A DNA stretch of 64,000 nucleotides from Pelotomaculum thermopropionicum SI (GTDB taxonomy: Bacteria; Bacillota; Desulfotomaculia; Desulfotomaculales; Pelotomaculaceae): positions 124,001-188,000 of the forward strand of contig AP009389.1 in the NCBI GenBank assembly GCA_000010565.1. Reading direction: 5' to 3'. Under the pieces are notes generated by a model. It did not search any database, was not told where the DNA came from, and saw only the letters and a list, made by a program, of their open reading frames with translations. The translations under genes and the position numbers were made by a program. Position 1 is the stretch's first letter, and each line of letters begins with the position of its first letter. Shown piece by piece: positions 2,565 to 34,015 of the stretch.

Positions 2565-2718
2565 TTTTAAGCACCCACAGCTTAAATAAAATTTTTAAGG
2601 TTATTTTAATGACAAAAGCTGAATATTCTTTTATCAGTTCTACCGCTGTAAAAGAGGTGGCCTTTTTTGGTGGTTCACTGGCCAGCCTTGTACCGCCGAT
2701 GGTGGGAAAAAAGGTGGC

Positions 2719-2769
2719 TTCCCCGAAACGCTGGAAGTGGACCACTTCCCTTTCCCTTAAAAAATGCAC
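2719..2769 (-). pseudogene. cotJC internal fragment (17 codons)
   Basis: On the minus strand this encodes FLREREVVHFQRFGEA, the same segment as near the end of the cotJC part at 13150-13605. By eye about 46 of 50 bases match. Nothing cotJC-like continues on either side. It is in the same orientation as the two other cotJC 3' pieces (5045-5117 and 13150-13605). Confidence 0.8.
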
Positions 2770-2886
2770 CCGGGAATAACCCGGGAATAAGTTTCTTCCG
2801 GAGGAACCGCTAGGCTTTGCCGGATTATAACGTAAGCTCAGAGGTCATTTTTCTCCGGCTCATCTGTGGGTTTGTCAGGTTATTTT

Positions 2887-3156
2887 TTATACTGCCTGAA
2901 CCTCCGTTATTTTTAAGTCTACCCGGTAGCCCAACCGATGCAAAAAGTCTTCAATATCTTCCCAGGATATTCCGAAAGCCTTTACATCGGCCAAACCCAG
3001 GCGGCTTATGATGTCTCTCAATGTTTCGTAATCTTTATCTTCGAAGTCAGCTTCCATCATGGACATTTCGGCCCAGTTCACCAGCTCAGCCAGGGTAATG
3101 CGGTGGAATAAGTAGTCAATAAGTTTGTGTGCAATATTTTGGCGCGTTAGTTTCAT
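2887..3156 (-). CDS. small acidic protein, candidate antitoxin
   Basis: A protein of 89 residues, helical and acidic (NWAEMSMMEADFEDKDYETLRDIISRLGLADVKAFGISWEDIEDFLHRLGY). ATG 3156 is chosen because AGGAGA lies 7 bases before it. It overlaps the 3' end of the gene at 3116-3409 by 41 bases, implying translational coupling. I know this two-gene arrangement only as a recurrent pair of hypothetical proteins; a toxin-antitoxin role is inferred from size, overlap and the acidic/basic pairing, not from a recognised domain. Confidence 0.6.
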   Translation of the reverse strand: MKLTRQNIAHKLIDYLFHRITLAELVNWAEMSMMEADFEDKDYETLRDIISRLGLADVKAFGISWEDIEDFLHRLGYRVDLKITEVQAV

Positions 3157-3409
3157 TATTGTTCTCCTTTCGGGATTTCCTGTGCCCCTTATCCTTTGGG
3201 AATTTTTCATGCGTTTCAACTAAGTTACCGTTTTGGTCGTAAATTTCCTGGTAAAAACTTATGGTTTCCTCTAATCTGTTTACTTCTTTTACGTAACGTG
3301 CCCGCCAGCCATGTTTGCCCTGAACCTCATAGAAATAGCGGCGGCCGCCGTCCGGAAGCTCCGTCCATGAACGGAACTTTTTTTCGTTTTCTTTTCGTTT
3401 ACCGGTCAC
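3116..3409 (-). CDS. small basic protein paired with the candidate antitoxin
   Basis: A 97-residue basic protein starting with GTG 3409 (GGGAG 10 bases upstream). The core GRRYFYEVQGKHGWRARYVK and FYQEIYDQNGNLVETHEK are aromatic and beta-rich; the tail is Lys/Arg-rich. It is the first gene of a two-gene operon with the acidic protein at 2887-3156. Upstream lie a tandem AATTATATACA repeat (3464-3483) and the dyad GGTTGA...TCAACC (3485-3504), possible promoter and operator of a self-regulated pair. The function is not recognised. Confidence 0.6.
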   Translation of the reverse strand: MTGKRKENEKKFRSWTELPDGGRRYFYEVQGKHGWRARYVKEVNRLEETISFYQEIYDQNGNLVETHEKFPKDKGHRKSRKENNNETNAPKYCTQTY

Positions 3410-3563
3410 TGTGAGATTGCTCCCGTTTTTTTACAGTATACCTTTTGTTTAAGTTAATGTCAATTATATACAATTATATACAGTCGGTTGAAAATATATC
3501 AACCAAACGCCGTTCTTTTTGCAAATGAATTATCAATAGCAAAAAGAACAATTATACGGGGAA

Positions 3564-4165
3564 TTGCAAAGACTCTGGCACCAGGAGTGGCTAACCAGGA
3601 AAGAAAAAGCCGGAGAAGTTAATAATGCCCAAAACCTGGTCCATTTAGAAGTGATTTATAAAGGGGATAAGGAACAATTCGTTAATGTATTGCAACATGT
3701 TTTCCAGGGTACGGGAATCCGGCGCGACAGGTTGGAAAAAGTTGCCCGTTATTACCAGGATGGGATTGAGATCCTTCGGGCGCTGGACGCGCGGGAGCGT
3801 TTTCTTTCTTTCGGGTTTACTGAAAAAGAGTGGCTGAAATTTTATGAGCGAGCCAGGGAGCAGGAGAAGCTCCTTGGTCTTTACCGGGTTCCCGATACCC
3901 TGGAAATTAAATACGGAGGCCAGTCGATCAGCAGGTTGTCTTTAGGTCAGCGGGCTTCTGCCCTGTTGATCCTGCTGCTCAGTTTTGAAAATATGCCTGT
4001 TATTGTCGATCAGCCGGAGGACGACCTGGACAGCCAGACGATTTATCACGGCCTGATCAAAGAGTTGGTGAAATTGAAGAGAAAGCGCCAGATAATTTTC
4101 GCCACCCATAATCCCAACATTCCCGTTTTGGGAGATTGCGAACAGGTGGCGGTATTCAGTTATGG
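3564..4165 (+). pseudogene. C-terminal fragment of a TrlF-like PHP-ATPase
   Basis: About 200 residues carry the end of an ABC-type (SMC-like) ATPase: signature LSLGQRASALLIL, Walker B and D-loop PVIVDQPEDDLDSQTI, and switch histidine IIFATHNPNIPVLGD. This order and the DQPEDxLD motif are characteristic of TrlF-family ATPases, which normally have an N-terminal PHP domain and Walker A in a protein of roughly 900 residues. All of that is missing. After SYGDSAF (about 4165) the frame becomes meaningless, while the next frame enters a different gene tail. A possible N-terminal PHP piece of such a gene lies at 31789-31995. Confidence 0.8.
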
Positions 4166-4177
4166 GGATAGCGCCTT

Positions 4178-4945
4178 TTGCAGGAATCGGGCAATCTTTA
4201 TGCCGAGGAAATGCCGGTGGAAGAAAGCAGTATGCTGGATTTGGATCTGGATTTTTTTAAAGAGTTTTATCAGAAGCGCGCCGGTGAATCCATTGATTCC
4301 CTGGAAATCACGCTTGATGTCCTGTTAACGAATATGCGCTTGCTAAAAGATGGGAAGTGTACCCTGGCGGGGTTGCTCTTGTTTGGTAAGAACCCGGAGG
4401 AAAGAAGGCCGGCTTTCATAATCAAAGCAATTTCCTTTACGGGTAATGATCCCGCTGGTGTGTTGTACAGGGATAGCCGGGATCTAACTGGAAATATCGC
4501 CAGGTTATTTCTTTCCGGCATGGCCTTTTTGAAAAATAATTTGCGCATGGTGCAGGGAGAGCAAGGTTTTAACAGCGTCGGCTGCCTGGAAATTCCGGAG
4601 GTGGCTTTAGAAGAGGCCTTGATTAATGCCATACTCCACCGTAATTATTTTCTGGCCAGCAACATCAGGTTGTTTGTGTTTGACGACCGGGTGGAAATCA
4701 TCAGCCCGGGGAGCCTTCCCAATACGCTGAGAGTTGAAACCATCAAACACGGGATTCACGTTGAGCGCAACCCAATCATGGCTTCTCTGGTAAGGGATAT
4801 TAAGGAGATACCGTATCGCGGCGCCGGCACGGGAATCCAGCGGATTATCCGGGCCTGCAAAGAAGCAGGAATTCGCGTGGAATTCATAAATAATGAAGAA
4901 GGGGAGCAGTTCAAGGTGATTTTTTACCGGGATAAAATGGTTTGA
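4178..4945 (+). pseudogene. C-terminal part of an AlbA_2 / HATPase_c_4 regulator
   Basis: The 255 residues match the C-terminal two thirds of the COG2865-type regulator family (Schlafen AlbA_2 plus GHKL-like HATPase_c_4). Visible are the linker GKCTLAGLLLFGKNPEERRP, the N-box-like VALEEALINAILHRNY, DDRVEIISPGSLP and the G-box YRGAGTGIQRII. The N-terminal AlbA_2 domain is absent: the frame begins just where the TrlF-like tail ends. The two gene remnants therefore share one junction near 4165-4180, most simply a deletion that fused the tails of two defence-type genes. A functional product is unlikely. Confidence 0.75.
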
Positions 4946-5044
4946 AAACACTTCCGAACCAGTTCCTGTTAATAGCAGATTATTGGCACAAAGTAAGGGC
5001 CCGGAATCCTGCGGCGTTGAGTGTACCGGAACCGGGCCATTTTA

Positions 5045-5117
5045 TTAGTAAAACTTCTTCGAGTCGAGCAGCGCCTGGACGTAGTTTAAAGCTTCGCCGA
5101 AGCGCTGGAAGTGTATT
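5045..5117 (-). pseudogene. cotJC 3'-end fragment
   Basis: On the minus strand the segment reads VIHFQRFGEALNYVQALLDSKKFY followed by TAA, the last 24 residues of a CotJC protein. It aligns without gaps to 13153-13225 with about 11 differences in 73 bases by eye, in the same orientation. Upstream of residue 1 the similarity stops abruptly. A GGCCCGG...CCGGGCC dyad lies just downstream (5000-5040), perhaps the old terminator. Confidence 0.85.
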
Positions 5118-5192
5118 ACTTTGGAGGAAAATGACAATATATGTTGAATAATCACCGAAAACCTTCCAGCGATAAAATAAAGCGGGGATATT

Positions 5193-8100
5193 ATGTTTAT
5201 TGCCTCAAATTACCGGATTATAGAACAACTCCACAAAAAAAACTCGGTCGTCTACCGTGCCCGCCGTAATGCAGACGGCCGGCCCGTCATTCTCAAAATA
5301 CTGAACAGGCGATATCCGCCACCCGAGGAAGCCGCCCGCTTCAAACGGGAGTACGAAATTATCCGCGGCCTGCCCGTGGAAGGGGTTGTTGAGGCGTATG
5401 CCTTTGAAAAGGACCAGGGTTACCTTATTATGGTTCTGGAAGATTTCGGGGGTACGTCGCTGGACCTTTTACTGCCGTCCATGAAAATGGATTTGAACAC
5501 ATTCCTGTCTCTTGCCGTTAAGGTGGCCGGGACACTGGACATGATTCACCGGCAGGGGGTCGTCCACAGAGACATCAACCCGTCCCACATCGTCTGGAAC
5601 CCGGAAACCGGCCGGGTCAAAATCATCGACTTCGGCCTGGCCGCGGTTTTACCGGGCGATAGCCGGGAGGTTTACACCGCCGGCCTTCTGGAAGGAACGC
5701 TGGCCTACATGTCCCCGGAACAGACGGGCAGAATGAACCGGGCCGTGGATTACCGGACCGACCTGTATTCGCTGGGCGTGACGCTGTACGAGACGGCGAC
5801 TAACAGGCTGCCCTTTGTAGCCGGTGACGCCCTGGAAATGGTGCATTCGCACATTGCCAGGGCACCTGTACCGCCGCATGAGGTTAATCCGGAAATACCG
5901 GAAATGGTTTCCAGAATCATTTTGAAGCTAATGGCCAAAACAGCGGAAGAACGGTACCAGAGCGCCGCCGGCCTCCAGGCCGATTTGCAGAGGTGCCTGG
6001 ACCGGTACGAAGCGACGGGCAGGGTGGATGTCTTTGAAGCCGGCTGCCGGGACCTCTCCGGCAGGCTGAAAGTGCCCCAGAAGCTGTACGGCCGGGAAAA
6101 GGAAATGAAAGAACTGCTGGCCGGTCTGGACCGGGCCGGCACCGGTTTGGCGGAAATGATCCTGGTTGCGGGCCGCGCAGGTGTGGGCAAAACCGCGCTG
6201 GTTCAGGAAATGCTCAAGTGCGTGGGGCGAAAGCGCGGCTACTTCATTTCCGGCAAATTCGAGCAGTTCAGGCACAACGTCCCCTACGCCTCCCTGGTTC
6301 AGGCCCTGCAGAAACTGGTCCGGCAAATCCTGGCCGAAAGTGAAGAGCGGATTGCCTCCTGGAGGGAGAAACTGCTCAAAGCCCTGGGGCCGAACGGACA
6401 GATCATCATCGAGCTTATTCCGGAGCTGGAGCTGATCACCGGCCCGCAGCCGCCGGCCCGGGATCTGCCCCCCGGCGAGTCGCAAAACCGCTTCCGCCTC
6501 GTATTTCAGAATTTTTTACGCACATTTGCCGCCGGGGAACACCCCCTGGTCATTTTTTTCGACGACCTGCAGTGGGCCGACGCCGCTTCCCTGCAGCAGT
6601 TGAAGCACCTGGTAAGCGGTGCGGAGATGAAACACCTCCTGCTCATCGGGGCCTACCGGGATAATGAAGTGGCGGACGGCCACCCGCTGCCGCAGGTGAT
6701 TGAAGAAATTAAAAGTGCCGGGACGGCCGTCCGGCTGATCGGCCTGGGGCCCATTGATCCAGCCGCCACCGGGCGGATGCTGGCGGAGGCCCTGGGCTGC
6801 GAGGAGGCCGCCGCCCGGCCCCTGGCCGGACTGGTTTACCGGAAATCGGCGGGCAACCCTTTTTACGCCAGGCAATTCCTGCAAAAGATTTATGAAGAGG
6901 GTCTTTTGTTTTTCGACCGGCGGGAACACTGCTGGAAGTGGGACGCCGGACGCGTCCTGCAACTGGAAACCGGGGACGGCGTGATCGACCTGCTAATTGG
7001 CAGAATCCGGAAACTGCCTGAAAAGACAAGGGAGGTATTGAAGGTCTCGGCCTGCATTGGAAGGGCATTCGACCTGAAAACCCTGACCGTTGTCTGTGGA
7101 CAATCCCCCGGCCGCACGGCGGAAGACCTGTTGCCGGCCCTCCGGGCAGGCGTGGTCGTTGCCGGGGGCGGTTTTTCCCCTGCAGACGGTGCCGCCCGGG
7201 AACCGGACGAACATGCCGGGCCGGAGGGGCCTTTCGCTTTTTGCGAATTCGCGCACGACCGCGTCCAGCAGGCGGTTTATTCCCTTCTGTCCGGTGCGGA
7301 AAAGAAAGCTATCCACCGCCGGGTTGGCCTGGCGCTTCTCCGGGAAACGGAGCCGGAGCATTTGGAGAGGAAAATTTTTGAGATCGCCGACCACCTGAAC
7401 AACGGCCGGGAATTAATTGCAGGCCGGGATGAAAGCCTCAGGCTGGCCGCATACAACCTGTCGGCCGCCCGCAAGGCAAAGCTTTCGGTTGCCTTCGAGG
7501 CAGCTCTCCACTATCTGGAGGCGGGCCGGAGCTGTTTGCCCGAAGGCGCCTGGAAAGATTGTTACCGCCTGGCCTTCGACCTGCACCTGGAACTTTGCCA
7601 GTGCCTTTACCTGTGCAGAAAAGAGGAGGCCGCGGAGCAGGTGTTCCGGATGCTGCTGGACAGGGCCGGAACGCGGGCGGACCGGTCGCAGGTTTTTGCC
7701 ATGAAGGCCGTTATCTGCACGGAAACGATCCGGTATCCCGAGGCGGTCCGGTTCGGGCTGATGGGTTTGAAGGAACTGGGCTTTTTCCTCCCCGAAAGGC
7801 CGGGAAATTATTTCCTGTTGAAAGAGAGCCTGGGGGTCAGGTGGCGCCTGGCCCTGAAGAAAAATAAGGCGCTGCCCGAGCTGCCCCAGATAAAAAACCC
7901 GCGCCTGGAGAAAATCATGGATCAGATGGCCGGCCTGCTGCCGGTCACCAGCCTGACCAATCCCCGGCTGTTTACCGCCCTGATCCTGAAAATGCTCAAG
8001 ATCTCCTTGAAACACGGCAACACCAGGCACTCCACCATCGTCTACGCCTGCTACGGCCTGATCAGCGCCATCCGGGGCAACATGAGGATTGCCGGGGAAA

Positions 8101-11100
8101 TGCAGGAGGTTTCGCTGATGCTGACCGGCCGGTACGGCGACCATCCCGTCAAGAGCCCGGTTTATTACAGCGTGGCCTCCTTCCTCAGCCACTGGACGGA
8201 ACCCCTGCAAAAAACCCTGCAGCACGCGGCTGCGGCCCATCAATGCGCCCTCGAGTTCGGCAACTTTTTCTATGCTGGCGCCGACCTGGCCCGCATTACC
8301 GAAATCAGGCTCATTTTGGGCGAGCCCCTGCCCCGGGTTTACGAGGAATGCGCCTCCAGCCTGGAGTTTACCAGACGGTTCAAGCTGGAGAACCTGGCGC
8401 GGTTTTTTGCGATGGCCCGCATGTTTATAGAAGACATGCAGGAGACCTCTCCATTTTTCTTCGCCGCAGACGAAGCGGAAAGGCTGGGGGAGCAGGTGAA
8501 GGCAAACAGGAACGGCCCGATGATTATCAATTATTACCTGCTCAAAATCCAGTCCTTGTACCATCACGGCCGCTACGCCGAGGCCCTGGACGTGTTCCGG
8601 GAAATCGACAAGAACAGCGTTAGTTCGGTTTTGGCCATGGTCATCTTTACCGAATACGTCTTCTGGCACTCCCTGGTCATCACCGCCGCCTACGGACAAC
8701 TGGTGGAGGAGCAGAAGGGACGCTGCCGGAAAATTCTCCGGGAAAACCGGCGCAAACTGAAAAAATGGGCCGATTCCTGCCCCCGCAATTTCCTGCAAAA
8801 GTACTGCCTGGTTGCGGCGGAAACGGCCCGCCTGGCCGGCCGGCCGGCCGAAGCCATGGAACTGTACGACCGCGCCATTTTCTGGGCGAAGGAAAACGAG
8901 TTTGTGCGGGACGAGGCCCTGGGCAACGAACTGGCGGCCAGATTCTGGCTGGCCGCAGGAAAGGCGGACATAGCCGCGCTGTACGCGGGAAGGGCGTTAC
9001 GGGGCTATCGGTACTGGGGGGCGAAACGCAAAGTACGCCGCCTGTCGGAAGAATTCTCTCACCTGTCTGCCCATCCGGAAGCGGGGCTGATACCGGTTCT
9101 CGACAAAATGCAGGCCATTGTTTCGGCGGAATCCGCCAGGGCCGCCGCCAGCGAGCTGGACCTCGCCTCAATCATTAAGCTTTCGCAGGTGCTTTCCGGG
9201 GAGATCGTGCTGCCCGAGTTGCTGAAAAAAACAATGCGGATCATCCTGGAGAATGCCGGGGCGCAGCGGGGCTTTTTCATTGCGGAGTCCGGCGGGGAGT
9301 TGAGGATAGAAGCGGAGGCCCATGCGGGCGGCGGGGGCGCGGCCGGGAGCCTGCAGCCGTCAGGCGGGGAAGGCGCGCCGCAGGAGCAGCAGGTCTTCCT
9401 GCAATCCGTCCCTCTGGCGGGGGCAAAGCACCTGTCCGCGGCCGTAGTGCAATATGTGGCCAGAACCGGGGAATACGTGGTGCTGCACGACGCGGCGCAG
9501 GAGGGGGCGTTTGCCCGCGATGAGTACATCCAGAAAAACAGCCCGAAATCTGTCATCTGCCTGCCGGTAACCGGAAAGGGGAAGCCGGCCGGTATCCTCT
9601 ATCTGGAGAACAACCTGTCTGCGGCAACATTCACCCCGGACCGGGTGGAAGTGTTGAGGCTTTTGTCTACCCAGATTGCCATTTCCATCGAAAACGCCCG
9701 CCTTTATGCCAGCCTGGAGGAGTCGAGAAACCAGATCGCCGGGTGGAGCCAGTTCCTGGAACAGACGGTGGCCGCAAGAACGCGCGAACTGCAAGAAACC
9801 AACGAATTGCTGAAGCAGGCGAAAGAGGCTGCCGACGCGGCCAACCGCGCCAAAGGCAAGTTCCTGGCAGTAATGAGCCATGAAATCCGCACGACCTTGA
9901 ACGGCCTGATCGGCATGGCCGAACTGCTGCTGGACACCCCCTTAAACGGCGAGCAGCAGGAGTACGTGTCCGCCGTGCGGGAGTGCGCGGACTCCCTTTT
10001 GTCGGTAGTCAACGACCTCCTGGACTTTTCCAGAATTGAAGAAGGCAGGCTGGTCCTGGAAACGGTCAGCTTCAACCCGGCTTCACTGGTTGAAAAAAGC
10101 GTTGCCCTGGTGGAGCCCGGGGCCAGGCAAAAAAGCCTTCTCCTCAAGTATCATATCGCCCCGGACGTTCCAGGAACCCTGCAGGGCGACCCGATCCGCC
10201 TGCGCCAGGTGCTGCTAAACCTTTTAGGCAACGCCGTTAAGTTTACAGAAAGGGGCGAAATTTCCCTCAGTGCCTTTGTGGAAGGGAGGGAGCCGGATTC
10301 CCTAACCGTGCGCTTCGAGGTGCAGGACACGGGCATCGGCATTCCGGAGGAAGCCAGGAGCATGCTTTTCCGGCCGTTCACCCAGGCCGGCCCTTCTTCG
10401 GCCGGCAGGTACGGCGGAGCCGGCCTGGGCCTGTCCATCTGCAAGCGGCTGGTGGAACTGATGGGCGGGCGGATCGGCTTCGAGAGCGAGGAAGGCCGGG
10501 GCTCCACCTTCTGGTTTAGCGTCCCCTTTGCTGCCGGCAAGTCCATGGATGCCCCTTCCGGCGCGTCCCCCGCCCCTGTCCGGCCCCTGACGCCGAAGTG
10601 GCAGCCCGGCCCGATCCTGGTGGCCGAAGACTTCGCCATCAACCAGAAACTTATTCAGGCTCAATTAAGGAAACTGGGCCTGGCCGCCGATGTGGCAGGC
10701 AACGGGAGGGAGGCGGTGGAGGCCTTCTCCCGGAACTCTTACGCCCTGGTTTTAATGGACTGCCGGATGCCGGTGATGGACGGGTTTGAGGCGACCAGGG
10801 CAATCCGCAGCCTGGAGGCTTTGCGCGGGCGGCGCACCCCCATTATTGCCACCACGGCTGCTGCCATGCCCGGGGAACGGGAGAAGTGCCTGAGCGCCGG
10901 AATGGACGATTACCTCACCAAGCCGGTGCGGATGGAAGACCTGCAAAGAGTCCTTTCCCGCTGGCTGCCTGCTCCGGAGCTGCCGCTGGCAGGTGAATCA
11001 GGGAATCTCCCCCGGCCGGGGAAGGAGGCCTTGCAGTTACCGGGGCTGACGGCGGTAAACGGGGACAGGTTGGGCGAACTTCTGAATACCACGGGAGAAG

Positions 11101-11408
11101 ACGTGCATTTTTTGTGCAGACTGATCAGAGCTTTTCTGCGGGACATGCCTGAAAAGCTAAAGTCCCTCCGTTCGGCCCTGCGGCAGGGGGACGCTGCCAC
11201 GGCGCGCCTGCAGGCCCACGGCATGAAGTCCAGCAGCTCCATCCTGGGCGCCGCGCTATTTGCGGATTTGTGCAGGGAAGCAGAAGAGCTGGCCGCCGGC
11301 GGTGTCACCGGCGGTGCGGACAAACTGGTGGCGCGGCTCGAAGCGGAATACGAACGGGTGGTGAAAGACTTTGAAACCATTCTTGAAAGCCAGTTGCCGC
11401 TGCGTTGA
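5193..11408 (+). CDS. Ser/Thr kinase - AAA ATPase - GAF - hybrid histidine kinase - REC - HPt
   Basis: A 2071-residue signalling protein. Residues 5-270 are a protein-kinase domain with HRDINPSH (D127) and DFG; the glycine loop is poor (QLHKKNSVV). Residues 300-600 form an AAA_16 ATPase with [10 protein letters not shown] (K333) and [10 protein letters not shown] long helical, TPR-like region runs to about 1320. A GAF domain (about 1325-1500), a coiled linker, HisKA with [11 protein letters not shown] (H1563) and HATPase boxes ([20 protein letters not shown]) follow. The receiver has [13 protein letters not shown] (D1856), and the HPt domain has QAHGMKSSS (H2009). The architecture is a full internal phosphorelay. 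No membrane segment is seen, so it is probably cytoplasmic. It may signal to the convergent response regulator downstream, but this is inference. Start ATG 5193 follows GCGGGG. Confidence 0.95.
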
Positions 11409-11482
11409 ACCACCTGTGAGGGATTGCGCTGTAACCCGGTTATAACCTGGACGCTGAGTTAACAGCTCCGGCTAATATCTTT

Positions 11483-12184
11483 TCAAAAAGCGCTGAATTT
11501 GTATCCCACACCCCTAACTGTTTGTATGTAAGCGGGGTTGTTGGGGTCTTTTTCAATCTTCTTGCGCAGCCTGCTGATATGAACCATCAAAGTCCTGTTG
11601 TCGGCAAAATCCTTTGACTGCCATATCAGGTCCAGCAACTGCTCGTTTTTAAAAACCCGGTTGGGGTTTTTTGCCAAAAGCGCCAGTATTTCAAATTCTT
11701 TTGGGGCAAGAGCCACAGCAGAGCCGTCGACCAGGACGGCGTGCCCCTCCAGATCTATCTCCAGGCCGCGGTACTTCAACATCTTCGGCTCCCGGCCGGC
11801 GGCTGTCTCCTCTCCCGGCTTCAGGCGCCGCAGCCGGGCTTTGACCCTGGCCACCAGTTCGCCCGGCACGAAAGGCTTCACGATGTAGTCGTCCCCTCCG
11901 ACTCCCAGACCGAGAATAATGTCCGAACTGTCGCCCTTGGCAGAAAGGAAGATGACCGGAACCTCGTTTTTCATCCGGAGTTTCCGGCAAAACTCGATCC
12001 CGTCAAGGCCCGGCAGGAGTATGTCAAGGATAATCAGGTCCGGTTTTAAGCGCGCGATCAAATCAAAAGCGCCGTATGCGTCGGCGGTGGTAATTACCTT
12101 AAAGCCTTCCCTGACCAGGCAGTGTCGAACCAGTTCCCTGACCACTTCTTCGTCATCGACCACAAGGATCAGTTCACCGGCCAT
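11483..12184 (-). CDS. OmpR/PhoB-type response regulator
   Basis: The receiver domain (residues 4-118) has D10, D11 and phospho-acceptor D54 in LIILDILLPGLDG, T/S as SAKG, and the switch lysine in IVKPF. A winged-helix DNA-binding domain follows (about 135-232: APKEFEILALLAKNPNRVF... TVRGVGYKF). ATG 12184 is chosen because AGGGGTGAT lies upstream at normal spacing. It is convergent with the giant hybrid kinase, with 74 bases between the stops, and no histidine kinase gene lies beside it. It could be the output of that phosphorelay or of a distant kinase. Target promoters cannot be read from here. Confidence 0.93.
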   Translation of the reverse strand: MAGELILVVDDEEVVRELVRHCLVREGFKVITTADAYGAFDLIARLKPDLIILDILLPGLDGIEFCRKLRMKNEVPVIFLSAKGDSSDIILGLGVGGDDYIVKPFVPGELVARVKARLRRLKPGEETAAGREPKMLKYRGLEIDLEGHAVLVDGSAVALAPKEFEILALLAKNPNRVFKNEQLLDLIWQSKDFADNRTLMVHISRLRKKIEKDPNNPAYIQTVRGVGYKFSAF

Positions 12185-12289
12185 GCAATATATCACCCCT
12201 TTTTACATTCCTCGACAAAGCATTTTCTACCGGCGCGAAATATTCTCCTGCCTTTTCAGGCGCTTTATTTCCCAAAAAACTGTTAGAAA

Positions 12290-12338
12290 AAATTCAGGTA
12301 AATTTTATGCTTTGTTTAAACCAGGTTTACCTGAATTT
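12290..12338. promoter_or_regulatory. 13-bp perfect inverted repeat upstream of regulator gene
   Basis: AAATTCAGGTAAA (12290-12302) and its exact complement (12326-12338) flank a 23-base spacer between the divergent response-regulator and HD-GYP genes. No T-run follows, so an operator is more likely than a terminator; autoregulation by the OmpR-type regulator is possible. Confidence 0.5.
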
Positions 12339-12467
12339 CAGGAATTAGTGCTATTTTTTATATAAAACCGGCAAATGCCCGGCGGGAGCTGCGGCGCCCG
12401 GGTGAAAGGCTGGGGCGGCCGTTCCTGCCCGGCTCATGCAGATGCTGGCAGAAAAGGAAGGCAAAAC

Positions 12468-13037
12468 ATGAATCTGCTTCTTTCTGTCAAGAACATCCTT
12501 TCTGTTCATCCGCCCCTGGAGCAGCACTGCAGCGGCGTGGCCAGGCTGACCGGGAAGGTAGTGTCCTGCTTGAACCTGGCCAACCGCAATGAAATTGTTT
12601 TTGCAGCCTACATGCACGATATCGGCAAGTCTGCCTGGCCGCGGGAATTGTTTTTCAAATACCCTCTTCAACCTTACGACTGATCGCTGATTAAGGCCCA
12701 CCCGGTAGCCGGGGAAAACCTGCTCCTGGAGTTATGGCCGGACGCGCCGCAAATAATCAGGTCGATTGTGCGGGGGCATCATGAAAGGCCCGGGGGCAAA
12801 GGCTATCCGGACGGCCTGGTTAAGCCTTCCCTTGAATTGTTAATTGTGGCGGCCTGTGATACTTATGATGCTATAACCAGGGATAAAGAGTATCCAACCG
12901 GGGAGGCCCTGCCCGGGCGATTTGCCCTGGAGCAGGTGGCGCGGTTTGCACCGGTGCGCGTCGTTGATGCGCTGGCAAAAGCCGCAGAGTGCCTGCGGGA
13001 ACCTTTAAACCGCCCCCGCCCCAGGGTTTTTAGGTAG
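12468..13037 (+). pseudogene. HD-GYP domain protein with in-frame TGA
   Basis: ATG 12468 follows AAGGAAG at good spacing. The frame encodes an HD-GYP phosphodiesterase core: HCSGVARLTG, the HD pair in AAYMHDIGKSAWP, then FKYPLQPYD and a TGA at 12681-12683, after which the same frame continues SLIKAHPVAGENLL, RGHHERPGGKGYPDGL and CDTYDAITRDK to a stop at 13035-13037. Without the TGA it would be a 189-residue protein resembling c-di-GMP phosphodiesterase domains. The usual family residue at the TGA position is not cysteine or tryptophan, so selenocysteine is unlikely; a CGA-to-TGA change is the simplest explanation. Both halves keep recognisable motifs, so the event looks recent. Confidence 0.82.
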
Positions 13038-13149
13038 AATAAACAAAAGGACTGTAAACTGATCTCTGACTGGATGTTTAGATTCTAAGGCCGAAGGCCG
13101 GCGGCGGGCCGGGGCCGGGGAAATTGCCCCGGCCCCCGGAAATTTTTTA

Positions 13150-13605
13150 TCAGTAATACTTTTTCGAGTCGAGCACCGCCTGTACGTCGTTCAAAGCTTC
13201 CCCAAAGCGCTGGAAGTGAACCACTTCCCTTTCCCTTAAAAAACGCAAGGTGTCTTTGACGCCGGGGTCGTCGGTGAGCTGGATCAGGCGTTCATAGGTG
13301 GCCCTGGCCTTCTGCTCGGCGGCCAGGTCTTCATGCAGGTCGGCAACCGGATCCCCCTGGGACTGGATGTAGGCGGCGGTCCAGGGCACCCCGGCGGCGT
13401 CGGCCGGGTAGACGGCGCGGTCGTGCTCGGCAAAATAGGCGCCCAGGCCGGCCTCCCTGAGCTGCTGCGCCGGCACGCCCTTAACCAGCTTGTAGATCAT
13501 GGTGCCCACAATTTCCCAGTGGGCCAGTTCCTCCGTGCCGATATCGGTTAACAACCCCTTGATGCAGTTAACCAGTTGATATGGAACATGAGGGCTAAGG
13601 TACAT
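13150..13605 (-). pseudogene. cotJC: cotJC, C-terminal part (Mn-catalase-like spore coat protein)
   Basis: The 151-residue frame matches CotJC from KGLLTDIGTEELAHWE to DVQAVLDSKKYY. Metal-ligand regions E..H in TEELAH, E in AAEQKARATYE and H in REREVVHF are present. About 40 N-terminal residues are missing, including the segment with the first ligand (usual DGELAAALR). The first residues (YLSPHVPYQLVNCI) fit the family weakly. Upstream on the minus strand the DNA turns AT-rich at about 13605. The missing N-terminus appears at 53777-53872 next to cotJB and cotJA, about 40 kb away in the same orientation. A short protein could still be made from ATG 13605, but there is no clear ribosome site. 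Confidence 0.85.
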
Positions 13606-13625
13606 GGCCAGCTTTTAATATTACA
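13600..13625. other. left attachment-site candidate of the 40-kb element
   Basis: The border between cotJC sequence and AT-rich DNA contains ATGGCC (13604-13609), which recurs at the other border (53776-53781). The element-side half is AGCTTTTAATATT. Combined with the element-side half at the right border it makes an imperfect AT-rich dyad centred on ATGGCC. The extent is approximate. Confidence 0.55.
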
Positions 13626-13641
13626 TAATATGTGATATAAT
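13613..13641 (+). promoter_or_regulatory. extended -10 promoter for the ATPase gene
   Basis: TGATATAAT (13633-13641) is a TGN-extended consensus -10; a weak TTTTAA lies 17 bases upstream. The start codon of the ATPase gene is 37 bases downstream, after a G-rich ribosome site. Confidence 0.5.
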
Positions 13642-13677
13642 ATTACAAAAATAGTAACAATCGTTGGGGGGGCTTAA

Positions 13678-14793
13678 ATGCATTTTCCACTGGGGGGGCC
13701 GGTGCCCGCAGAAGATATCGTGGGCAGAGATGACTTTATTACATCTCTTGAAACTAGATTGGCGGAAGGTCAAAGCGTTATGCTCGCCGGACCACGGAGG
13801 ATTGGTAAAACTTCTCTTGCCTTTGAAGTATTGCGCCGGCTGAAGAAAAAGGGGTTCTATGTGGGTTATGTAGATTTTTTCCGTGCGTCCAGCAAAAGAA
13901 GCATTGCTGAATCAATTATCAATAGTTGCCTTGAAAACAGAACCGGAATTAGAAAAACATTAAACGCTGTTTGGGATCGAGCGAAGTTGCTGGCCGGTTC
14001 TGCGAAAATAGCAGTCAAGGTTGAGGATTTAGAACTTAGTATTGGTTTTCCAAAGAAGGAAATGGATGATGAAACATTTCTGGAATTCGCTTTAAATCTG
14101 CCGGAACTTCTTGCTGAGAAAGACGGCAAGCGGATGGTGATGGTTTTTGATGAGTTCCAGGACGCCGGGCAAATCGCCGGGTTAGATATATACAAGGTGA
14201 TGCGTTCCCATTTTCAGCACCAAAACAAAGTATCATACCTTTTTCTTGGCTCAAAAGAAAGTATGATGCAGTCCCTTTTTGCAGGGAAGAAGCACGCTTT
14301 TTACCGTTTCGCCACAGTACTTCCCATCCCGCAAATACCGGAAGAAGACTGGATGAGCTATATTGCCCGTAAATTTAATGAAAGGGGTATTGAGGTAACC
14401 AGTGATTATGTTTTAAGGGAAATCGTCCAATTGGCAGGGGGGCATCCACAGGATACTATGCTGATATGCACAGAGGCCTATTACACATTACTGGAAGCCA
14501 ATGAGAGGAGATTATCAAGCGAAATTGTAAGAATTGCTTATGAGCGGGCCTTAATTACCCTGACTCCGGTTTTTGACGAAATACTGGATGAGGTTGGTAA
14601 GAAGCCTTTGGTCAGGGAGGTTCTTCGCCGCCTTGCCATAGGGGAAACAGTTTACAAGGACAAAAACAACCCAAACAATATAAAAAGGGCGGTCGATCTG
14701 CTTTCAATGAGCGCGATCATTGAAAAAGAAGGCCGTGGCAAATACAGGTTTGTCGAACCCATGTTGAAAGAATATATATTAAGAAATTATTAA
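13678..14793 (+). CDS. AAA/STAND-type ATPase
   Basis: A 371-residue protein with Walker A GPRRIGKTS (about residues 38-46), Walker B VMVFDEFQDAG near 155-165, a sensor-like FLGSKESMM, and a C-terminal winged-helix region (LLSMSAIIEKEGRGKYRFVEPMLKEYI). This is the architecture of the MNS-clade P-loop ATPases (ATPase_2/DUF234-like). Many such genes sit in mobile and defence loci with unclear targets. It is the first gene inside the proposed left border of the island, and the TPR gene follows after 129 AT-rich bases. Nucleotide binding is near certain; the biological role is unknown. Confidence 0.85.
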   Translation: MHFPLGGPVPAEDIVGRDDFITSLETRLAEGQSVMLAGPRRIGKTSLAFEVLRRLKKKGFYVGYVDFFRASSKRSIAESIINSCLENRTGIRKTLNAVWDRAKLLAGSAKIAVKVEDLELSIGFPKKEMDDETFLEFALNLPELLAEKDGKRMVMVFDEFQDAGQIAGLDIYKVMRSHFQHQNKVSYLFLGSKESMMQSLFAGKKHAFYRFATVLPIPQIPEEDWMSYIARKFNERGIEVTSDYVLREIVQLAGGHPQDTMLICTEAYYTLLEANERRLSSEIVRIAYERALITLTPVFDEILDEVGKKPLVREVLRRLAIGETVYKDKNNPNNIKRAVDLLSMSAIIEKEGRGKYRFVEPMLKEYILRNY

Positions 14794-14922
14794 ATTTGAC
14801 ATTGAAGTTTTCTTTAAAACCAGCAAAAATTACAGAAAATTAAAAAAATTACAATGCGTGAACGAGACTGTTTAATTAATGTATAATTATTAGGTGATGA
14901 TAAAAACAAGAGGTGATTTATA

Positions 14923-16425
14923 ATGCCTGACCGCAATATTACAGAACACTCAAACCAGTTGCACCAGTTGCTGGTTTCGGTATCAAGGCATTTTTACGTC
15001 CAAAAGAACGGAATGCTGAAATACCAGGAAAAACCAGTCGAGGTGAATATAAAAAATTACCCCAAGAGTAAAAAAGAGCACCTGGTTTATTATATCCTGC
15101 GGGACCACTTCAGCGGCAGTTTCGTGTTTGAAGTGACCACCACCAATTTCCTTATTCCCCTGGCGGACTTTTTATACTACGGGTGGAGTAATGGAACGGA
15201 GGAGAAGTATCTTTGGGGGATGCCCGATTTTTTGTATGTACCTCGGCTAATTTCCTCCCCGGAGCTGCTTGCTGGCCTCAAAAGATTGGGTGTTGAAGTG
15301 CTGAACCCGCCCAGCGGCTTTGCTTCCGGTATACGGATCGTCAGGGATATTGAAGACCAGATTAATTTTTATGTCCTCGTCAACACCGTTGACCACCGTC
15401 CGGAAAACATTGCCAGGCACAAAGAAAAAATTTATGAATATATGCTCAACCTTAACTTCGGGGACAACAAATTTAAAAAATGGCTGGACAACCTGCCGGC
15501 CGGCCATCCGAAAAAGACACCTGAATACAAGGATTTTGTAAAATGTTTCGCGGCCGCGTCAGGACGAGCCGCCGGGATACCCGTTGTTAACCCCTCCCCC
15601 GCTGACGAGTTCACCGGTTTGAAGAAGTATGTAGAAAAAACGGTTGAAAATGAAGTTTTTTCTAGTAGTAACCGGGAATTTTCAGCCGAAAAACTCCGGC
15701 GCGCTCAAGAACTGATTTATGATGCCTGGGAGGCCGAAAGCCGGCAAAGGCGCCTTTACCTTGCCCGCCGGGCGCTGAAAATCTCGCCTTACTGCGCCGA
15801 TGCCTACGTTCTGCTGGCTGAAGAGAGCAGGGACCCGCAGGAGGTTCGGGAACTATATGAAAAGGGTGTCCAGGCCGGCAGGTTATCTCTGGGGGATTTG
15901 TTTTTTAAAAAGAATGCAGGAAAATTTTGGCTTATTCTTGAAACGAGACCTTACATGAGGGCATTGGCCGGACTGGCCGACAGCCTTTGGAAAACGGGTC
16001 AAAGACAGCAGGCCATAGGGCATTACAAGGAAATGCTGCGCTTAAATCCCAACGATAACCAGGGCATCCGCTATATCTTGGCCGCATGTCTGCTGGAAGA
16101 AGAAATGGACGATGACCTGGGCGCTTTGCTGAACCAATACGAAGGCGACATATCCTGTTTTATGCATTACAACAGGGCGCTCTGGTCTTTCCGTACCTCC
16201 GGCGGCAGCAATGAACAATCGGACGCATATCTGGCGGAGGCTTTGGAGTCAAACAGCCACGTGCCTGCTTACCTGTTGGGCAAAAAGAAGATACCTTATT
16301 GCCTGCCGGATTATTATGCTCTGGGCAGCGAGGAAGAGGCCGTGATATATGCCGAGAGGGCTAAGAAAGCCTGGCAAAAAACACCGGCGGCGCTGGTGTG
16401 GCTGGCCAGGCATCTGCCGGAATGA
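14923..16425 (+). CDS. two-domain protein: unrecognised N-terminal domain plus TPR-like repeats
   Basis: 500 residues. ATG 14923 follows AAGAGGTGA. The N-terminal half (about 1-190) has a beta-rich core (HLVYYILRDHFSGSFVFEV, YLWGMPDFLYVP, GVEVLNPPSGFASGIRIVR) that reminds me weakly of an rve/RNase-H integrase fold, though no convincing DDE triad is seen. The C-terminal half (about 250-495) contains TPR/Sel1-like helical pairs (RLYLARRALKISPYCADAYVLLAEE; LADSLWKTGQRQQAIGHYKEMLRLNPND). It sits behind an ATPase gene and ends in a terminator. Function unknown. Confidence 0.75.
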   Translation: MPDRNITEHSNQLHQLLVSVSRHFYVQKNGMLKYQEKPVEVNIKNYPKSKKEHLVYYILRDHFSGSFVFEVTTTNFLIPLADFLYYGWSNGTEEKYLWGMPDFLYVPRLISSPELLAGLKRLGVEVLNPPSGFASGIRIVRDIEDQINFYVLVNTVDHRPENIARHKEKIYEYMLNLNFGDNKFKKWLDNLPAGHPKKTPEYKDFVKCFAAASGRAAGIPVVNPSPADEFTGLKKYVEKTVENEVFSSSNREFSAEKLRRAQELIYDAWEAESRQRRLYLARRALKISPYCADAYVLLAEESRDPQEVRELYEKGVQAGRLSLGDLFFKKNAGKFWLILETRPYMRALAGLADSLWKTGQRQQAIGHYKEMLRLNPNDNQGIRYILAACLLEEEMDDDLGALLNQYEGDISCFMHYNRALWSFRTSGGSNEQSDAYLAEALESNSHVPAYLLGKKKIPYCLPDYYALGSEEEAVIYAERAKKAWQKTPAALVWLARHLPE

Positions 16426-16483
16426 GACAGGCTGAGATATGGTTTAAGGGTCATTTTACGAGCGACGGCTGAGAATTTTTGTC

Positions 16484-16520
16484 GAAACCGCCTGCCTAAA
16501 AAGAGGCGGTTTCGCTTTTT
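16484..16520 (+). terminator. terminator of the TPR gene
   Basis: A 10-bp stem (GAAACCGCCT / AGGCGGTTTC) with a 10-base loop is followed by GCTTTTT. The IS1634-type insertion duplicated its 3' half. Confidence 0.85.
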
Positions 16521-16554
16521 AGAAACTAATTCGGGAGGATTTTGACTTATTTTT
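16498..16554. repeat. left copy of 57-bp target-site duplication
   Basis: 57 bases are identical to 18449-18505 and directly flank the IS termini. The duplicated target includes the distal arm of a terminator. Confidence 0.93.
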
Positions 16555-18448
16555 CCCGAGTTTATCAGTTGGGACGCCCAAATGATACCCTAATGATATA
16601 AGAAGCCGCATAAAATCTGGCTTTCAGGAATTGAAAATGCAAAAATCTTAAAAAGTGTAGTGGCAACTATTATTACTAATTACCATATATTATCTGGACA
16701 ATATATGGTCATAGTGGTATCATTTAAGTATGTTCATCAAATTAACCAAAACTAAAAACTATCAATATGTTCAGCTAGTCCAGTCTTACCGCGAAAACGG
16801 TGTTGTTAAACACAAAGTACTCTTTAATTTGGGTCGCCTTGATGAAATTGAAAATAATCCCAGTTTCCAAAGACTCGGTAAGCGCCTGTTAGAATTATCC
16901 AAGGCCAGGGAGGTGTCCAGTTTAGCGAATTTTTCCGAGGCGCAGATCAAAAACTGGGGCTATGTGGTCTATCAAAAAATCTGGAACCAATTTGATCTAC
17001 CAAACCTCCTCCGCAAAATTAGCGCCCAACGCAAGGTGCAATTCGACCTGAATAACGCCGCTTTTCTCATGGCTGTCCAGCATCTTCTTGAACCCAGAAG
17101 CAAATTAGGAACTTACACTCATCAGCACCGTTATGCCAGTTTGCCCAATGTTTCCTTGAACCACCTCTATCGCTCTTTGGACTTGCTCTGGGAGCATAAG
17201 GAATTGCTGGAGGTGGAGATATTCAAAAAAAACCACCACCTTTTTAACATGCAGGTGGATGTGGTTTTTTACGATGTAACGACCTTTTCCTTTGCCAGTG
17301 TTGAAGCTGATTCCCTGCGTAACTTTGGCTTTAGCAAAGATGGCAAGTTCAATGAAGTTCAGGTAGTATTGGGCTTATTGATTGATTGCGAGGGGAGGCC
17401 CATCGGCTATGAGCTTTTCCCCGGCAACACCTTTGATGGTAAGACTTTGGAAAAGGCCTTGGTCAAGCTTGAAGAACGTTTTGGCTTGCGCCGGGTGATT
17501 ATCGTTGCCGACCGGGGAATCAACAGCAAGCTTAATCTAAAACGTATAGTGGATCGTGGCTATAGCTATATCTTTGCCGCCCGGATCAAGAATATGAAGA
17601 AAGAGATTACTGATGAAATCTTAAGCGAGAATGGGTACCAAGAAATAAACGATGGTGAAGAAGTTATCCGCTATAAAGTTATTGAATATCTAAACGAATT
17701 TACTGCCGAAGGTCAAAAATACCAATTACCGGAGAAATTGATCGTTACCTACTCTAGCCGCCGGGCGGAAAAAGACCGGGCCGACCGGGAGAGGCTAATT
17801 GCCAAGGCCCAAAATCTTTTGGAAAGCAAGGCGAAAATTCAAGCCAGCAACAAACGCGGCGGCAAGAAATATCTCAAAGAAATAGATTGTACTGGGACAT
17901 GGATCCTGGACGAAGAAGCCATTGCTCGGGAGGAGCAATTTGACGGTTATTACGGCATCCAGACCAGCGAGAAAGAAATGAGCGCCAGAGATATTCTGGC
18001 TGCCTACCACAACCTGTGGCGGATAGAAGAATCTTTCCGCGTAATGAAAAGCACCTTGGAAGTCCGGCCGGTTTTTCACTGGACCGAACGGCGGATTAAG
18101 GGACATTTTGTAATTTGCTTCCTTGCTTTTCTACTCGAACGCACCCTGGAATTTAAGCTCCGGCAAGCCGGAGAAAATGCTTCCCCGGAAGCTATTCGGG
18201 AAGCCTTGAATTCTCTCAACTTTGCCGAGGTCGAAATTGGCGGAAATGCGTATTTTATCAAGACACAGAGTATGGAGTTAAGCAAAAAGATTTTACGTTT
18301 GATGCGGATTGCGCCGCCGGGTAATATTACCAGCGTAGAAGAGTTTGCCACTCGCCAGCAAAACAGGCAGTAGTGGCAAAATGCGCATATTGTTTTCTAT
18401 TTTTCTAGATTTCATGCGGGTTTCAGGATTTCAACTGATAAAGTCAGG
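16555..18448. mobile_element. IS1634-family insertion sequence
   Basis: A 1894-bp element with 17-bp imperfect terminal inverted repeats: 16555-16571 against the complement of 18432-18448, two mismatches, sharing TTTATCAGTTG. It contains one intact transposase gene and is flanked by a 57-bp direct repeat. IS1634 and IS1549 are known for unusually long, variable target duplications, which this fits. Element and repeat copies look intact, so the insertion is probably recent. Confidence 0.93.
16730..18373 (+). CDS. IS1634-family transposase
   Basis: A 547-residue DDE transposase. The N-terminus FIKLTKTKNYQYVQLVQSYR and the core FYDVTTFSFAS, VVLGLLIDCEGRPIGYELFPGNTFDGKT, VIIVADRGINSK and YHNLWRIEESFRVMKS with a C-terminal YLIK-type histidine/arginine region are diagnostic of the IS1634 branch of the IS4-like group. 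D in FYDVTT, D in VADRG and E in RIEESF are the expected catalytic acids. Length is normal and there is no frameshift. Confidence 0.95.
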   Translation: MFIKLTKTKNYQYVQLVQSYRENGVVKHKVLFNLGRLDEIENNPSFQRLGKRLLELSKAREVSSLANFSEAQIKNWGYVVYQKIWNQFDLPNLLRKISAQRKVQFDLNNAAFLMAVQHLLEPRSKLGTYTHQHRYASLPNVSLNHLYRSLDLLWEHKELLEVEIFKKNHHLFNMQVDVVFYDVTTFSFASVEADSLRNFGFSKDGKFNEVQVVLGLLIDCEGRPIGYELFPGNTFDGKTLEKALVKLEERFGLRRVIIVADRGINSKLNLKRIVDRGYSYIFAARIKNMKKEITDEILSENGYQEINDGEEVIRYKVIEYLNEFTAEGQKYQLPEKLIVTYSSRRAEKDRADRERLIAKAQNLLESKAKIQASNKRGGKKYLKEIDCTGTWILDEEAIAREEQFDGYYGIQTSEKEMSARDILAAYHNLWRIEESFRVMKSTLEVRPVFHWTERRIKGHFVICFLAFLLERTLEFKLRQAGENASPEAIREALNSLNFAEVEIGGNAYFIKTQSMELSKKILRLMRIAPPGNITSVEEFATRQQNRQ

Positions 18449-18505
18449 AAAAAGAGGCGGTTTCGCTTTTTAGAAACTAATTCGGGAGGATTTTGACTTA
18501 TTTTT
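18449..18505. repeat. right copy of 57-bp target-site duplication
   Basis: Identical to 16498-16554. The sequence that continues beyond it is the original neighbour of the TPR-gene terminator. Confidence 0.93.
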
Positions 18506-18559
18506 GGCGAACTGTTCATAAATTTACAATCCGGAAAAGGAACAGGAGGGACGAAAAGC

Positions 18560-18730
18560 GTGCAATCGGTCCTGAAGACGTGCCAGCCGCGACCCGAGAT
18601 TTTAGCCGGGATGTTTAATCCCGAGGTTTTCACGGTGTCGCTCAGTCCGGTTACAGAGTATTACCGTCGCGGCCGGGGCGTTATCGACAGCATTTATACC
18701 GGTGCGGAACTTTTTCCGGGATTGTGGAGC
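18560..18730 (+). pseudogene. N-terminal fragment of a DUF499-type ATPase
   Basis: GTG 18560 lies 9 bases after GGAGG. The first 50 or so residues (VLKTCQPRPEILAGMFNPEV, FTVSLSPVTEYYRRGRGVI, DSIYTGAELF) match the start of DUF499 proteins, large ATPases found in phage-defence loci. After ELF the normal continuation (a TYPT-G-L-like segment) is missing and the frame stops at 18763. About 95 percent of the gene is absent. Confidence 0.65.
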
Positions 18731-19203
18731 AGTATTATTTGCGGGAAATTCCCGCCTGTGTGAAAGATTTTTGTTGGGTAGCAGCGGGCGTGGCGCCGCG
18801 CTTTTTAGGCCAGGCCGTGCCCATCCCAGGCGACTGCGGAGAGAGCATCGGAATAACTCAAATTCCGGATCCGGAAAAAATCCGTGAATTAATTGGTCAT
18901 CAACCGGACCTTGGTGATTTATATGTCGGGACAATTCACAGCTTTTGTTATAAGTTGCTGCAAGAATATGTACCTGGCTACCGAGGATTTGATGTGCTTG
19001 ACGAAGGAAAGCGCTACGCATTTATTAGTAGCATTCGAGGAAACCTGAATTACACCCAATTAAAGAATTGGCTGGAATCTTCAGGGGCGAAAAAACCTTA
19101 TGGAATAACTACTCAAACCTGGGTTCTCAATATGCTCATCAGATTACCAATGGTGCGGGTCAACTCTAAAGAGTATTTTGACCTTCAAAAAGCCTCAGTT
19201 TAA
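18724..19203 (+). pseudogene. internal fragment of a UvrD/Rep-type helicase
   Basis: The segment from about 18900 reads DLYVGTIHSFCYKLLQEYVP and FDVLDEGKRYAFIS, the motif Ib/Ic region of UvrD-like helicases (TxHSF). Walker A, motif II and all downstream motifs are missing. The 55 residues before it (from 18724) do not resemble a helicase N-terminus and probably come from another gene. Just downstream, in another frame (19178-19267), lies a tail LTFKKPQFNRKVTYNLELQE with its own TAA, probably the end of a third gene. The whole segment is debris left of the restriction system. Confidence 0.65.
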
Positions 19204-19281
19204 CCGCAAGGTCACTTACAACCTCGAACTGCAGGAGAAAAAGGAACTGGAGAAAATACTGGAATAAGAGAGGTTTTGCTG

Positions 19282-21144: not shown

Positions 21145-21158
21145 GCAGGTGAAAGATA

Positions 21159-24185: not shown

Positions 24186-24257
24186 AATTAGTTGATCAGG
24201 ATATAATCAGGTTTAAATGTTGAGAAATGGTCAATTATGATAGCAGGTGATTAGGAT

Positions 24258-27393: not shown

Positions 27394-27453
27394 TATGATT
27401 TCCCTGTAAAAAAACCTCCGCCGCATTACAAGAACTTCTCATCTGGTAATACA

Positions 27454-29821: not shown

Positions 29822-29826
29822 CTGGC

Positions 29827-31578: not shown

Positions 31579-31788
31579 AATTAAAGGCTGCGTAACATTT
31601 AAGTCAATACATAGGATAATTAGTTATGGTAGCAAGGCTTTTTTAGAAAAAGATGGCTTGACAGGGTTTGTTTGTTTTTTTTTAACTGGGTGAGCACATG
31701 GCCTGTACGGCGGATCTTAGCCATGGTAAAGGCGTAGTCCGAGCCGGAGAACTCTCGTTAGAACTTGACGTGTTTTACCAGTAATTTC

Positions 31789-31995
31789 CCCGGCGGGGCC
31801 AGGTGCGTAATAGTAGATTTGCGCTTGCACACCCCGGTCGACCAGGGATTCAAATATTATTTTCCTAAAAATAGAGAAGCTTTTGTCCACGCTTATATTC
31901 AACAATTAAAAGAACGGTCTATACGCATTGAGGCCATAAACAACCATAACAAATTTGACCGGGAAGAGTTTGAGAAGTTGTCCGAAGGGGGGTAA
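31789..31995 (+). pseudogene. N-terminal PHP-domain fragment of a TrlF-like protein
   Basis: About 65 residues: VDLRLHTPVDQGFKYYF, then FVHAYIQQLKERSIRIEAIN and NHNKF. The LHTP and N/DHN signatures match the start of the PHP domain of TrlF-like ATPases (usual ITDHN, here INNHN). A TAA ends it at 31995, leaving the rest of the domain and the ATPase missing. The matching type of C-terminal tail lies at 3564-4165, but nothing shows that both came from one gene. Confidence 0.6.
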
Positions 31996-32067
31996 AAAAA
32001 GAGATTCTGACGTTCATAGGTAGTGTTAAACAAACACTTCTTGAACGGTTTTAAGTGTATGTGTCCG

Positions 32068-33543: not shown

Positions 33544-33651
33544 GAGTGCCACCTCGAAAATGATTGCCCGGTTTGGCCGGGCAAGTTATGGGCTTTTATC
33601 CAAAAAAACAGGGTAATGATAGCTGTGGTTTTGTGCGTGCCGGAAAAAAAG

Positions 33652-33960: not shown

Positions 33961-34015
33961 TTTAAAGTCTCCTTGTGTAACGTGCATTCAAAGAAAAGAA
34001 AACATCTTGAAAGAT

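Follow-up and report, generated by a model that had tools for sequence, protein, structure and literature searches.

Where in the Pelotomaculum thermopropionicum SI genome is its cotJC gene, and can a complete reading frame still be made from it? cotJC is described as a spore-coat gene in PMC11222575 and PMC12122855, and several pieces of it lie in the window studied here, a stretch of 64,000 nucleotides that corresponds to bases 124001-188000 of the single-contig genome of 3,025,375 bases (G000; other G codes denote relatives and L codes fetched loci or contigs). An initial annotation had described three directly repeated pieces of the cotJC 3' end, in the same orientation, towards the left end of the window and had interpreted them as traces of elements that integrated one after another, each with its own copy of the gene end. 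Our analysis indicates that cotJC is very probably a split sporulation gene, interrupted by two elements, E1 and E2, that resemble the skin element and would be excised in the mother cell to rebuild the gene, as judged from its sequence and from analogy with known elements.

Results

cotJC is divided into three exons

Searching the window with tblastn revealed cotJC as three pieces across 40 kb of the minus strand, with the exons in order and in the same orientation (Table 1). Queries from the N-terminus of CotJC matched at 53872-53777 (residues 1-32) and at 35565-35470 (residues 28-59), and the reading frame 13150-13605 is without the first 54 residues of the protein. The piece from 13150 onward, listed initially as one of the three repeated 3' pieces, holds as a repeat but is no intact gene, being exon 3 only, with the rest of cotJC at 35.5 and 53.8 kb. 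Exons 1 and 2 have the core AGTACGGCGGGCC in common and exons 2 and 3 the core TGTTAACCG, and joining the exons at these attachment (att) cores gives an open CotJC frame of 190 amino acids. Exon 1 is downstream of a cotJB-like frame and of an open reading frame (ORF), 54170..54430, that we take to be cotJA. An intact cotJC copy is absent from the G000 genome in searches with a 151-residue and a full-length query; the former gave three matches, namely exon 3 and two displaced relics described below, and the latter five, with the three exons among the matches listed. No tRNA that could serve as an insertion target was found in the window.

Nonsynonymous and synonymous divergence (dN/dS) of the spliced gene from the intact cotJC of G019 is 0.071/1.15, with 0.070/0.957 for exon 1 and 0.077/1.09 for exon 3, whereas dS is saturated for exon 2. 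The values are similar to those of two intact genes, G005 and G019 (0.062/1.32), and the spliced cotJC is under purifying selection.

Each gap is bounded by att half-sites and carries its own recombinase

E1 is inserted at codon 55 (site 2) and E2 at codons 30-32 (site 1). The arms of E1, CATATCAAC at 35460 and GTTGATATG at 13575, occur once each on the plus strand of the window, only at the E1 junctions. The att junctions are conserved at both sites across genomes, the typical site-1 junctions being GGCGGGCC-GGACTTATGATTTTAT next to exon 1 and ATAAAATCATAAGTCC-GGCGGGCC next to exon 2, and the site-2 junctions CATATCAACTGGTNAAC and GTNACCAGTTGATATG. When attP2 was reassembled from its halves it measured 48 bp in 6/8 genomes and 50 bp in the other two. 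In our view the arms resemble the inverted-repeat attP arms of serine integrases.

E1 and E2 carry the recombinases R1 and R2, respectively, both full length with domains of the serine recombinase family (Pfam) and only distantly related to each other (~23% identity). In the fetched loci, R1 relatives (51-73% identity) are found at site-2 splits and R2 relatives (53-65%) at site-1 splits, with the recombinase stop codon at most 50 bp from a junction in 6/12 R1 loci and 9/10 R2 loci; for the remaining stops this distance is between 101 bp and 1.3 kb, except in G000, where it is 18.5 kb. Both element orientations were found, R2 adjoining exon 1 in six loci and exon 2 in four. At E<=1e-90, R2 was detected in 12 of the 113 genomes of an order-wide survey, 11 of them above 50% identity: nine are joined site-1 splits, G068 has both junction halves and G036 shows a contig edge only. 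The twelfth, G096 (39% identity), has an intact cotJC. At the same threshold R1 was detected in 13/113 genomes, 12 with the gene at a site-2 split, the thirteenth being G018 with an unsplit cotJC. The att half-sites, the cognate recombinases and the exact rejoining show, as far as sequence can, that R1 and R2 each inserted an element at its own attB within the cotJC coding sequence.

Among known proteins, R1 aligns along most of its length with large serine integrases from phages of streptococci and enterococci (phiFC1 and others), with at most 41% identity among the matches listed. R2 was not found in viral contigs, nor at 1e-60 among 50,697 phage records, and the viral contigs held no attP1. 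A loose-pattern search of the viral contigs for attP2 returned at least 120 stretches and was discarded as too unspecific.

Splits are widespread in relatives and occur beyond the order

A match to full-length CotJC is present in 89/113 genomes of the survey, and by hand count at least 25/113 have one or more cotJC splits (G000, G001, G002, G003, G008, G011, G013, G014, G016, G036, G039, G047, G049, G053, G056, G067, G068, G073, G074, G076, G082, G084, G093, G097 and G108). Joining at the cores gave an open CotJC of 190 or 200 amino acids in 19/19 genomes for which the junctions were available; the unjoined ones (G002, G011, G013, G014, G036, G068) offer a partial view or end at a contig edge. 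G010 and G092, in which two pieces of cotJC lie side by side without an intervening element, are outside the count, and G011 additionally holds an intact, more distant copy. Both sites are split in G000, G049 and G073, and a third site near residue 64 is used in G008 and G049; the G049 locus comprises four pieces of cotJC, one of them a 25-nt exon, and three elements. This small exon lies between two elements (L073 ~11560-11590, L074 ~10040), and the third recombinase is at the third site (L074 8480-9934). A 5-kb contig from a viral collection, L293 (IMGVR_UViG_3300005393_000292; 4966-5055), contains R1 (67%) and cotJC exon 2 together with one arm each of site 2 and site 1; here both sites are occupied in another organism.

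With an alignment of nine R2 proteins as query, 27 R2 loci were recovered among 84,980 named genomes, several of them from genomes already within the survey; with R2 alone as query, no match in the named genomes was confirmed. cotJC is broken at site 1 beside R2 in 25/27 loci (identified by tblastn in 24 and from the att pattern in L329), and no broken cotJC was found beside R2 in L305 and L328. The loci include Pelotomaculum terephthalicicum, Pseudobacteroides cellulosolvens, Ruminiclostridium papyrosolvens, R. cellobioparum, R. hungatei and R. sufflavum as well as Heliobacterium mobile, H. chlorum and Heliorestis acidaminivorans; in H. mobile and H. chlorum the arm letters differ and the inverted repeat is retained. 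Since the site-1 element is found in several groups of Clostridia, it is likely to be old and common.

Two assemblies, G014 and G002, hold occupied and empty forms of site 2. In G014 a contig ending in exon 2 has its last 141 nt in common with the starts of two contigs, one leading into intact cotJC and the other into attR2, while G002 has a contig that leads from exon 2 into attB and a second one with attL2 and exon 3. The cotJC of G018 shows no split as far as a stretch of N close to its end, and a separate 64.5-kb contig of this genome, C201 (L300-L303), has R1 beside an intact attP2 of 48 bp together with phage genes of the contractile-tail type (portal, protease, major head, sheath, tape-measure, baseplate); no terminal overlap indicative of circularity was found. 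A mixture of strains may account for the observations in each of G014, G002 and G018.

A small ORF of E1 is preceded by a promoter-like site of the cotJA class

The candidate recombination directionality factor (RDF) of E1, RDF1, was found in 13/14 genomes searched. It is usually located at the junction opposite R1 (G003, G014, G049, G067, G073, G074, G076, G082, G084, of which G014 has no R1 in its assembly), lies ~0.8 kb from that junction in G000, adjoins R1 in G093, and in G018 sits across attP2 from R1. The motif CATANNNT ends 5 nt before the RDF1 ATG in 11/12 cases, the exception being the G018 phage contig, compared with 1/352 control ORF starts. AC-N15-18-CATA is present upstream of RDF1 in 10/12 cases against 1.7 by shuffle, a count reached in 0/2000 shuffles, with rows that are related by descent; in G018, one of the ten, the site is farther from RDF1. 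A site of the same class, AC-N16-17-CATANNNT, precedes cotJA in 7/7 genomes examined, and by its consensus the class may be a sigK- or sigE-type promoter. The motif is plainly there, and it is likely that RDF1 would act as the switch of E1 under a site of the class that precedes cotJA. For E2, a small ORF unlike RDF1 is found directly upstream of R2 in all nine loci of the order that were examined.

Cargo of the two elements

Between R1 and exon 3, E1 carries a defence cargo at 19276-31578 consisting of type III restriction-modification, NsnABC-like genes and a NurA-HerA pair, and a transposase that we call IS1634-like. In E2, a 347-residue RRXRR protein (37014-38057) has no HNH match in Pfam and looks like a relative of IsrB/IscB. 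An E2 ORF at 47746-48933 has a weak PHROG integrase match (E 1e-6) and is possibly a second, tyrosine-type recombinase, and the gene upstream of R2 (51018-51893) has a weak YhgA-like match and a 69% homolog upstream of R2 in G016. A prophage nature of the large site-1 elements was considered and dropped: no head or tail family was matched at 1e-10 in 10 ORFs of G047 and G056, so these elements are not evidently prophages.

Table 1. Coordinates of cotJC exons, inserted elements and associated features in the window.
Feature	Position	Strand	Remarks
Internal relic of cotJC exon 3, displaced	2717..2768	-	52 nt, 92%; blastn E 6e-17
Relic of cotJC 3' end, displaced	5047..5121	-	75 nt including gene end with stop, 85%; blastn E 1e-19
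cotJC exon 3, to stop codon	13150..13553	-	residues 55-190; Mn_catalase domain PF05067
Site-2 core in exon 3	13545-13553	-	TGTTAACCG
E1 at site 2	13554..35468	.	21.9 kb; R1, candidate RDF1, defence cargo
E1 cargo, R1 to exon 3	13678..31578	+	ATPase_2, TPR protein, type III restriction-modification, NsnABC-like genes, NurA-HerA
R1, large serine recombinase	32068..33552	-	Resolvase, Recombinase and Zn ribbon (Pfam)
RDF1, candidate RDF of E1	34522..34626	-	34 residues, MKEELTPEQIKVMKAIRIMIKIAKRILEAEKKKN
Mother-cell-type promoter-like site	34632..34658	-	AC-N17-CATAAAAT; directly upstream of candidate RDF1
cotJC exon 2	35469..35564	-	tblastn
Site-2 core in exon 2	35469-35477	-	TGTTAACCG; 3' end of exon 2
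Site-1 core in exon 2	35552-35564	-	AGTACGGCGGGCC; 5' end of exon 2
E2 at site 1	35565..53777	.	18.2 kb; R2, candidate RDF2; arms GAAAAATCAAAAGTA / TACTTTTTATTTTTC
RDF2, candidate RDF of E2	51979..52146	+	55 residues; directly upstream of R2
R2, large serine recombinase	52168..53763	+	Resolvase and Recombinase (Pfam); stop codon 14 bp from exon-1 junction
cotJC exon 1	53778..53872	-	residues 1-32, MWIYEKKLEYPVRVFKTDIGMAKYLLAQYGGP; tblastn
Site-1 core in exon 1	53778-53790	-	AGTACGGCGGGCC; ends exon 1
cotJB-like ORF	53888..54148	-	directly upstream of exon 1; named from place, read from sequence
cotJA-like ORF	54170..54430	-	homologs upstream of cotJC in relatives
Promoter-like site	54469..54495	-	AC-N17-CATAAGCT; upstream of cotJA

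Discussion

Comparison with known intervening elements

Both cotJC elements interrupt a sporulation gene within its coding sequence, carry their own serine recombinase and have junction repeats at which joining restores the frame. The skin element in sigK of B. subtilis and C. difficile is likewise situated within a sporulation gene and has its own serine recombinase, and there the frame is restored by excision with a small RDF; for the cotJC elements excision is predicted and the RDFs are candidates. The C. difficile RDF is encoded by CD1234, a gene controlled by sigE and SpoIIID, and limits excision of skin to the mother cell (PMC5025042). cotJC differs from skin in its target and in having two different recombinase systems in one gene, with a third site in relatives. 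Further intervening elements of spore-formers include SPbeta/spsM, gin/gerE, vfbin/spoVFB, the spoVR element, yin/yabG and the kamA prophages; as described there, each of these genes is split once by one element, unlike cotJC, and even gin, with three recombinases, splits gerE at one site only (PMC5595907, PMC6957869, PMC10747680). The C. difficile prophage phi027 is integrated next to a CotJC-family gene and, unlike E1 and E2, is described there as adjacent to it, not as splitting and restoring it (PMC11222575, PMC12122855). Neither a paper on a split cotJC nor a survey of it was found in the open-licence PMC literature, a search that leaves subscription papers and preprints uncovered.

By analogy with skin, SPbeta/spsM and gin, we infer that growing cells and spores would retain E1 and E2 in their DNA, and that in the mother cell each recombinase, together with its small directionality factor, would excise its element; the double excision would restore cotJC as one frame and supply CotJC to the spore. 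Since joining the pieces yields a perfect gene, both elements are probably removed during spore formation. We also consider it rather likely that cotJC can be regarded as a gene with DNA-level introns, all of which have to be excised by separate, dedicated recombinases in the doomed mother cell for the coat catalase to be made, a description that covers both G000, with two elements and 40 kb including a defence island, and G049 with its three elements and 25-nt exon.

The left-hand repeats and alternative explanations

The repeats of the initial annotation were recovered mechanically (2717-2768 with 13196-13247, 52 nt, 92%; 5040-5121 with 13145-13226, 82 nt, 85%), and in a blastn comparison of the left 16 kb of the window with spliced cotJC the E values of the two left pieces place them beyond chance. 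They are decayed exon-3 relics, which would stem from earlier rounds of element traffic. That elements with their own cotJC 3' end integrated serially here and left behind the pieces at 5.05 and 2.72 kb, with the blocks 2.8-5.0 and 5.1-13.1 kb being such elements, strikes us as doubtful, although this account concerns the relics and is compatible with a split cotJC. The relics are real and in line, and the large kinase in the second block lacks a close ortholog in 25 relatives, where the best full-length match reaches 32%; in 24 fetched loci of 18 genomes it met only weak domain matches. Displaced exon-3 pieces also occur in G005, G011 and G003: in G011 a further exon 3, bearing an attL2-like arm, follows ~1 kb downstream of the first, and G005 (L095 16738-18972) holds a decayed relic ~13.5 kb downstream of its intact cotJC, close to a homolog (75%) of the ATPase adjoining exon 3 in G000, from which it follows that ends of former elements can persist together with an old exon 3. 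However, the scanned ORFs of both left blocks include no recombinase, the CATATCAAC and GTTGATATG arms were not found in these blocks, no recombinase was seen by eye among the listed ORFs between gene and relic in G005, and no genome was found that precisely lacks the block, none of the fetched relatives having a comparable left flank. The kinase block is unproven as an inserted element, and the insertions provable by sequence are all right of 13.15 kb, beyond the coordinates given initially. The converse case, the kinase block kept in place in genomes without cotJC repeats, was not encountered in these relatives and loci. Of the serial-insertion interpretation, then, the proposal of cotJC as a long-term insertion hotspot is borne out, with site-specific elements at two, rarely three, sites in at least 25/113 genomes surveyed and displaced relics also in three relatives, while the left blocks as repeat-bounded elements are not. 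Beside the kinase, the HD-GYP-like gene at 12470-13037 looks broken by eye, with an in-frame TGA near 12681.

Several observations weigh against programmed excision. Excision was not seen in G000, where the single contig has both sites occupied, and R1 lies far from exon 3 with cargo in between. attL2 was not found by pattern in G014, so that two strains could explain its fork. G039 is split at site 1 and G011, G013 and G014 have site-2 junctions, yet at E<=1e-90 no R2 was detected in the former and no R1 in the latter three; RDF1 was not found in G053. A simple scan for sigE-like promoters upstream of the recombinases gave 1/21 regions against 0.66 by shuffle, so that such promoters were rejected, and as a rule no CATANNNT site lies near the RDF2 start in the nine loci. 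In addition, B. subtilis mutants without CotJC show no apparent defect according to PMC12122855, which weakens the selective need. The mutant phenotype, the want of a sporulation-type site at R1, R2 and RDF2, the large defence cargo of E1 and the existence of decayed relics would all suit the view that cotJC is a mere convenient attB, in which the elements stay and the split gene is dead or dispensable. We regard this as unlikely, since the exons are intact and under selection, rejoin in frame in every genome that could be joined, and have not drifted as the relics did and as a dead gene would be expected to; the recombinases are full length with their family domains, and RDF1 retains CATANNNT at a fixed distance in nearly all cases. 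It is highly improbable that CotJC is used in pieces, with exon 3 making a short functional protein from its own start: the frame is open and has an ATG at 13605, but the extra N-terminal residues are att-arm sequence that varies between genomes, often without an ATG, and the conservation of exons 1 and 2 would be unexpected if they were unused.

If cotJC is indeed a split gene rebuilt by excision, it would join the short list of sporulation genes restored at the level of DNA, and two or three independent recombinases acting in one gene would be a situation undescribed in the open-licence literature found. In the split genomes, automated gene prediction may have recorded cotJC as truncated or missing. 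The G018 phage contig ties an element that is likely domesticated to a phage that is likely live and shares the same site, and the recombinases, att sites and candidate directionality factors provide orthologous sets for studying the coupling of excision to the mother cell. The locus would then be a small bacterial counterpart of ciliate programmed genome editing, in which DNA introns are kept by selection on cotJC and tied to sporulation by the promoter of a directionality factor.

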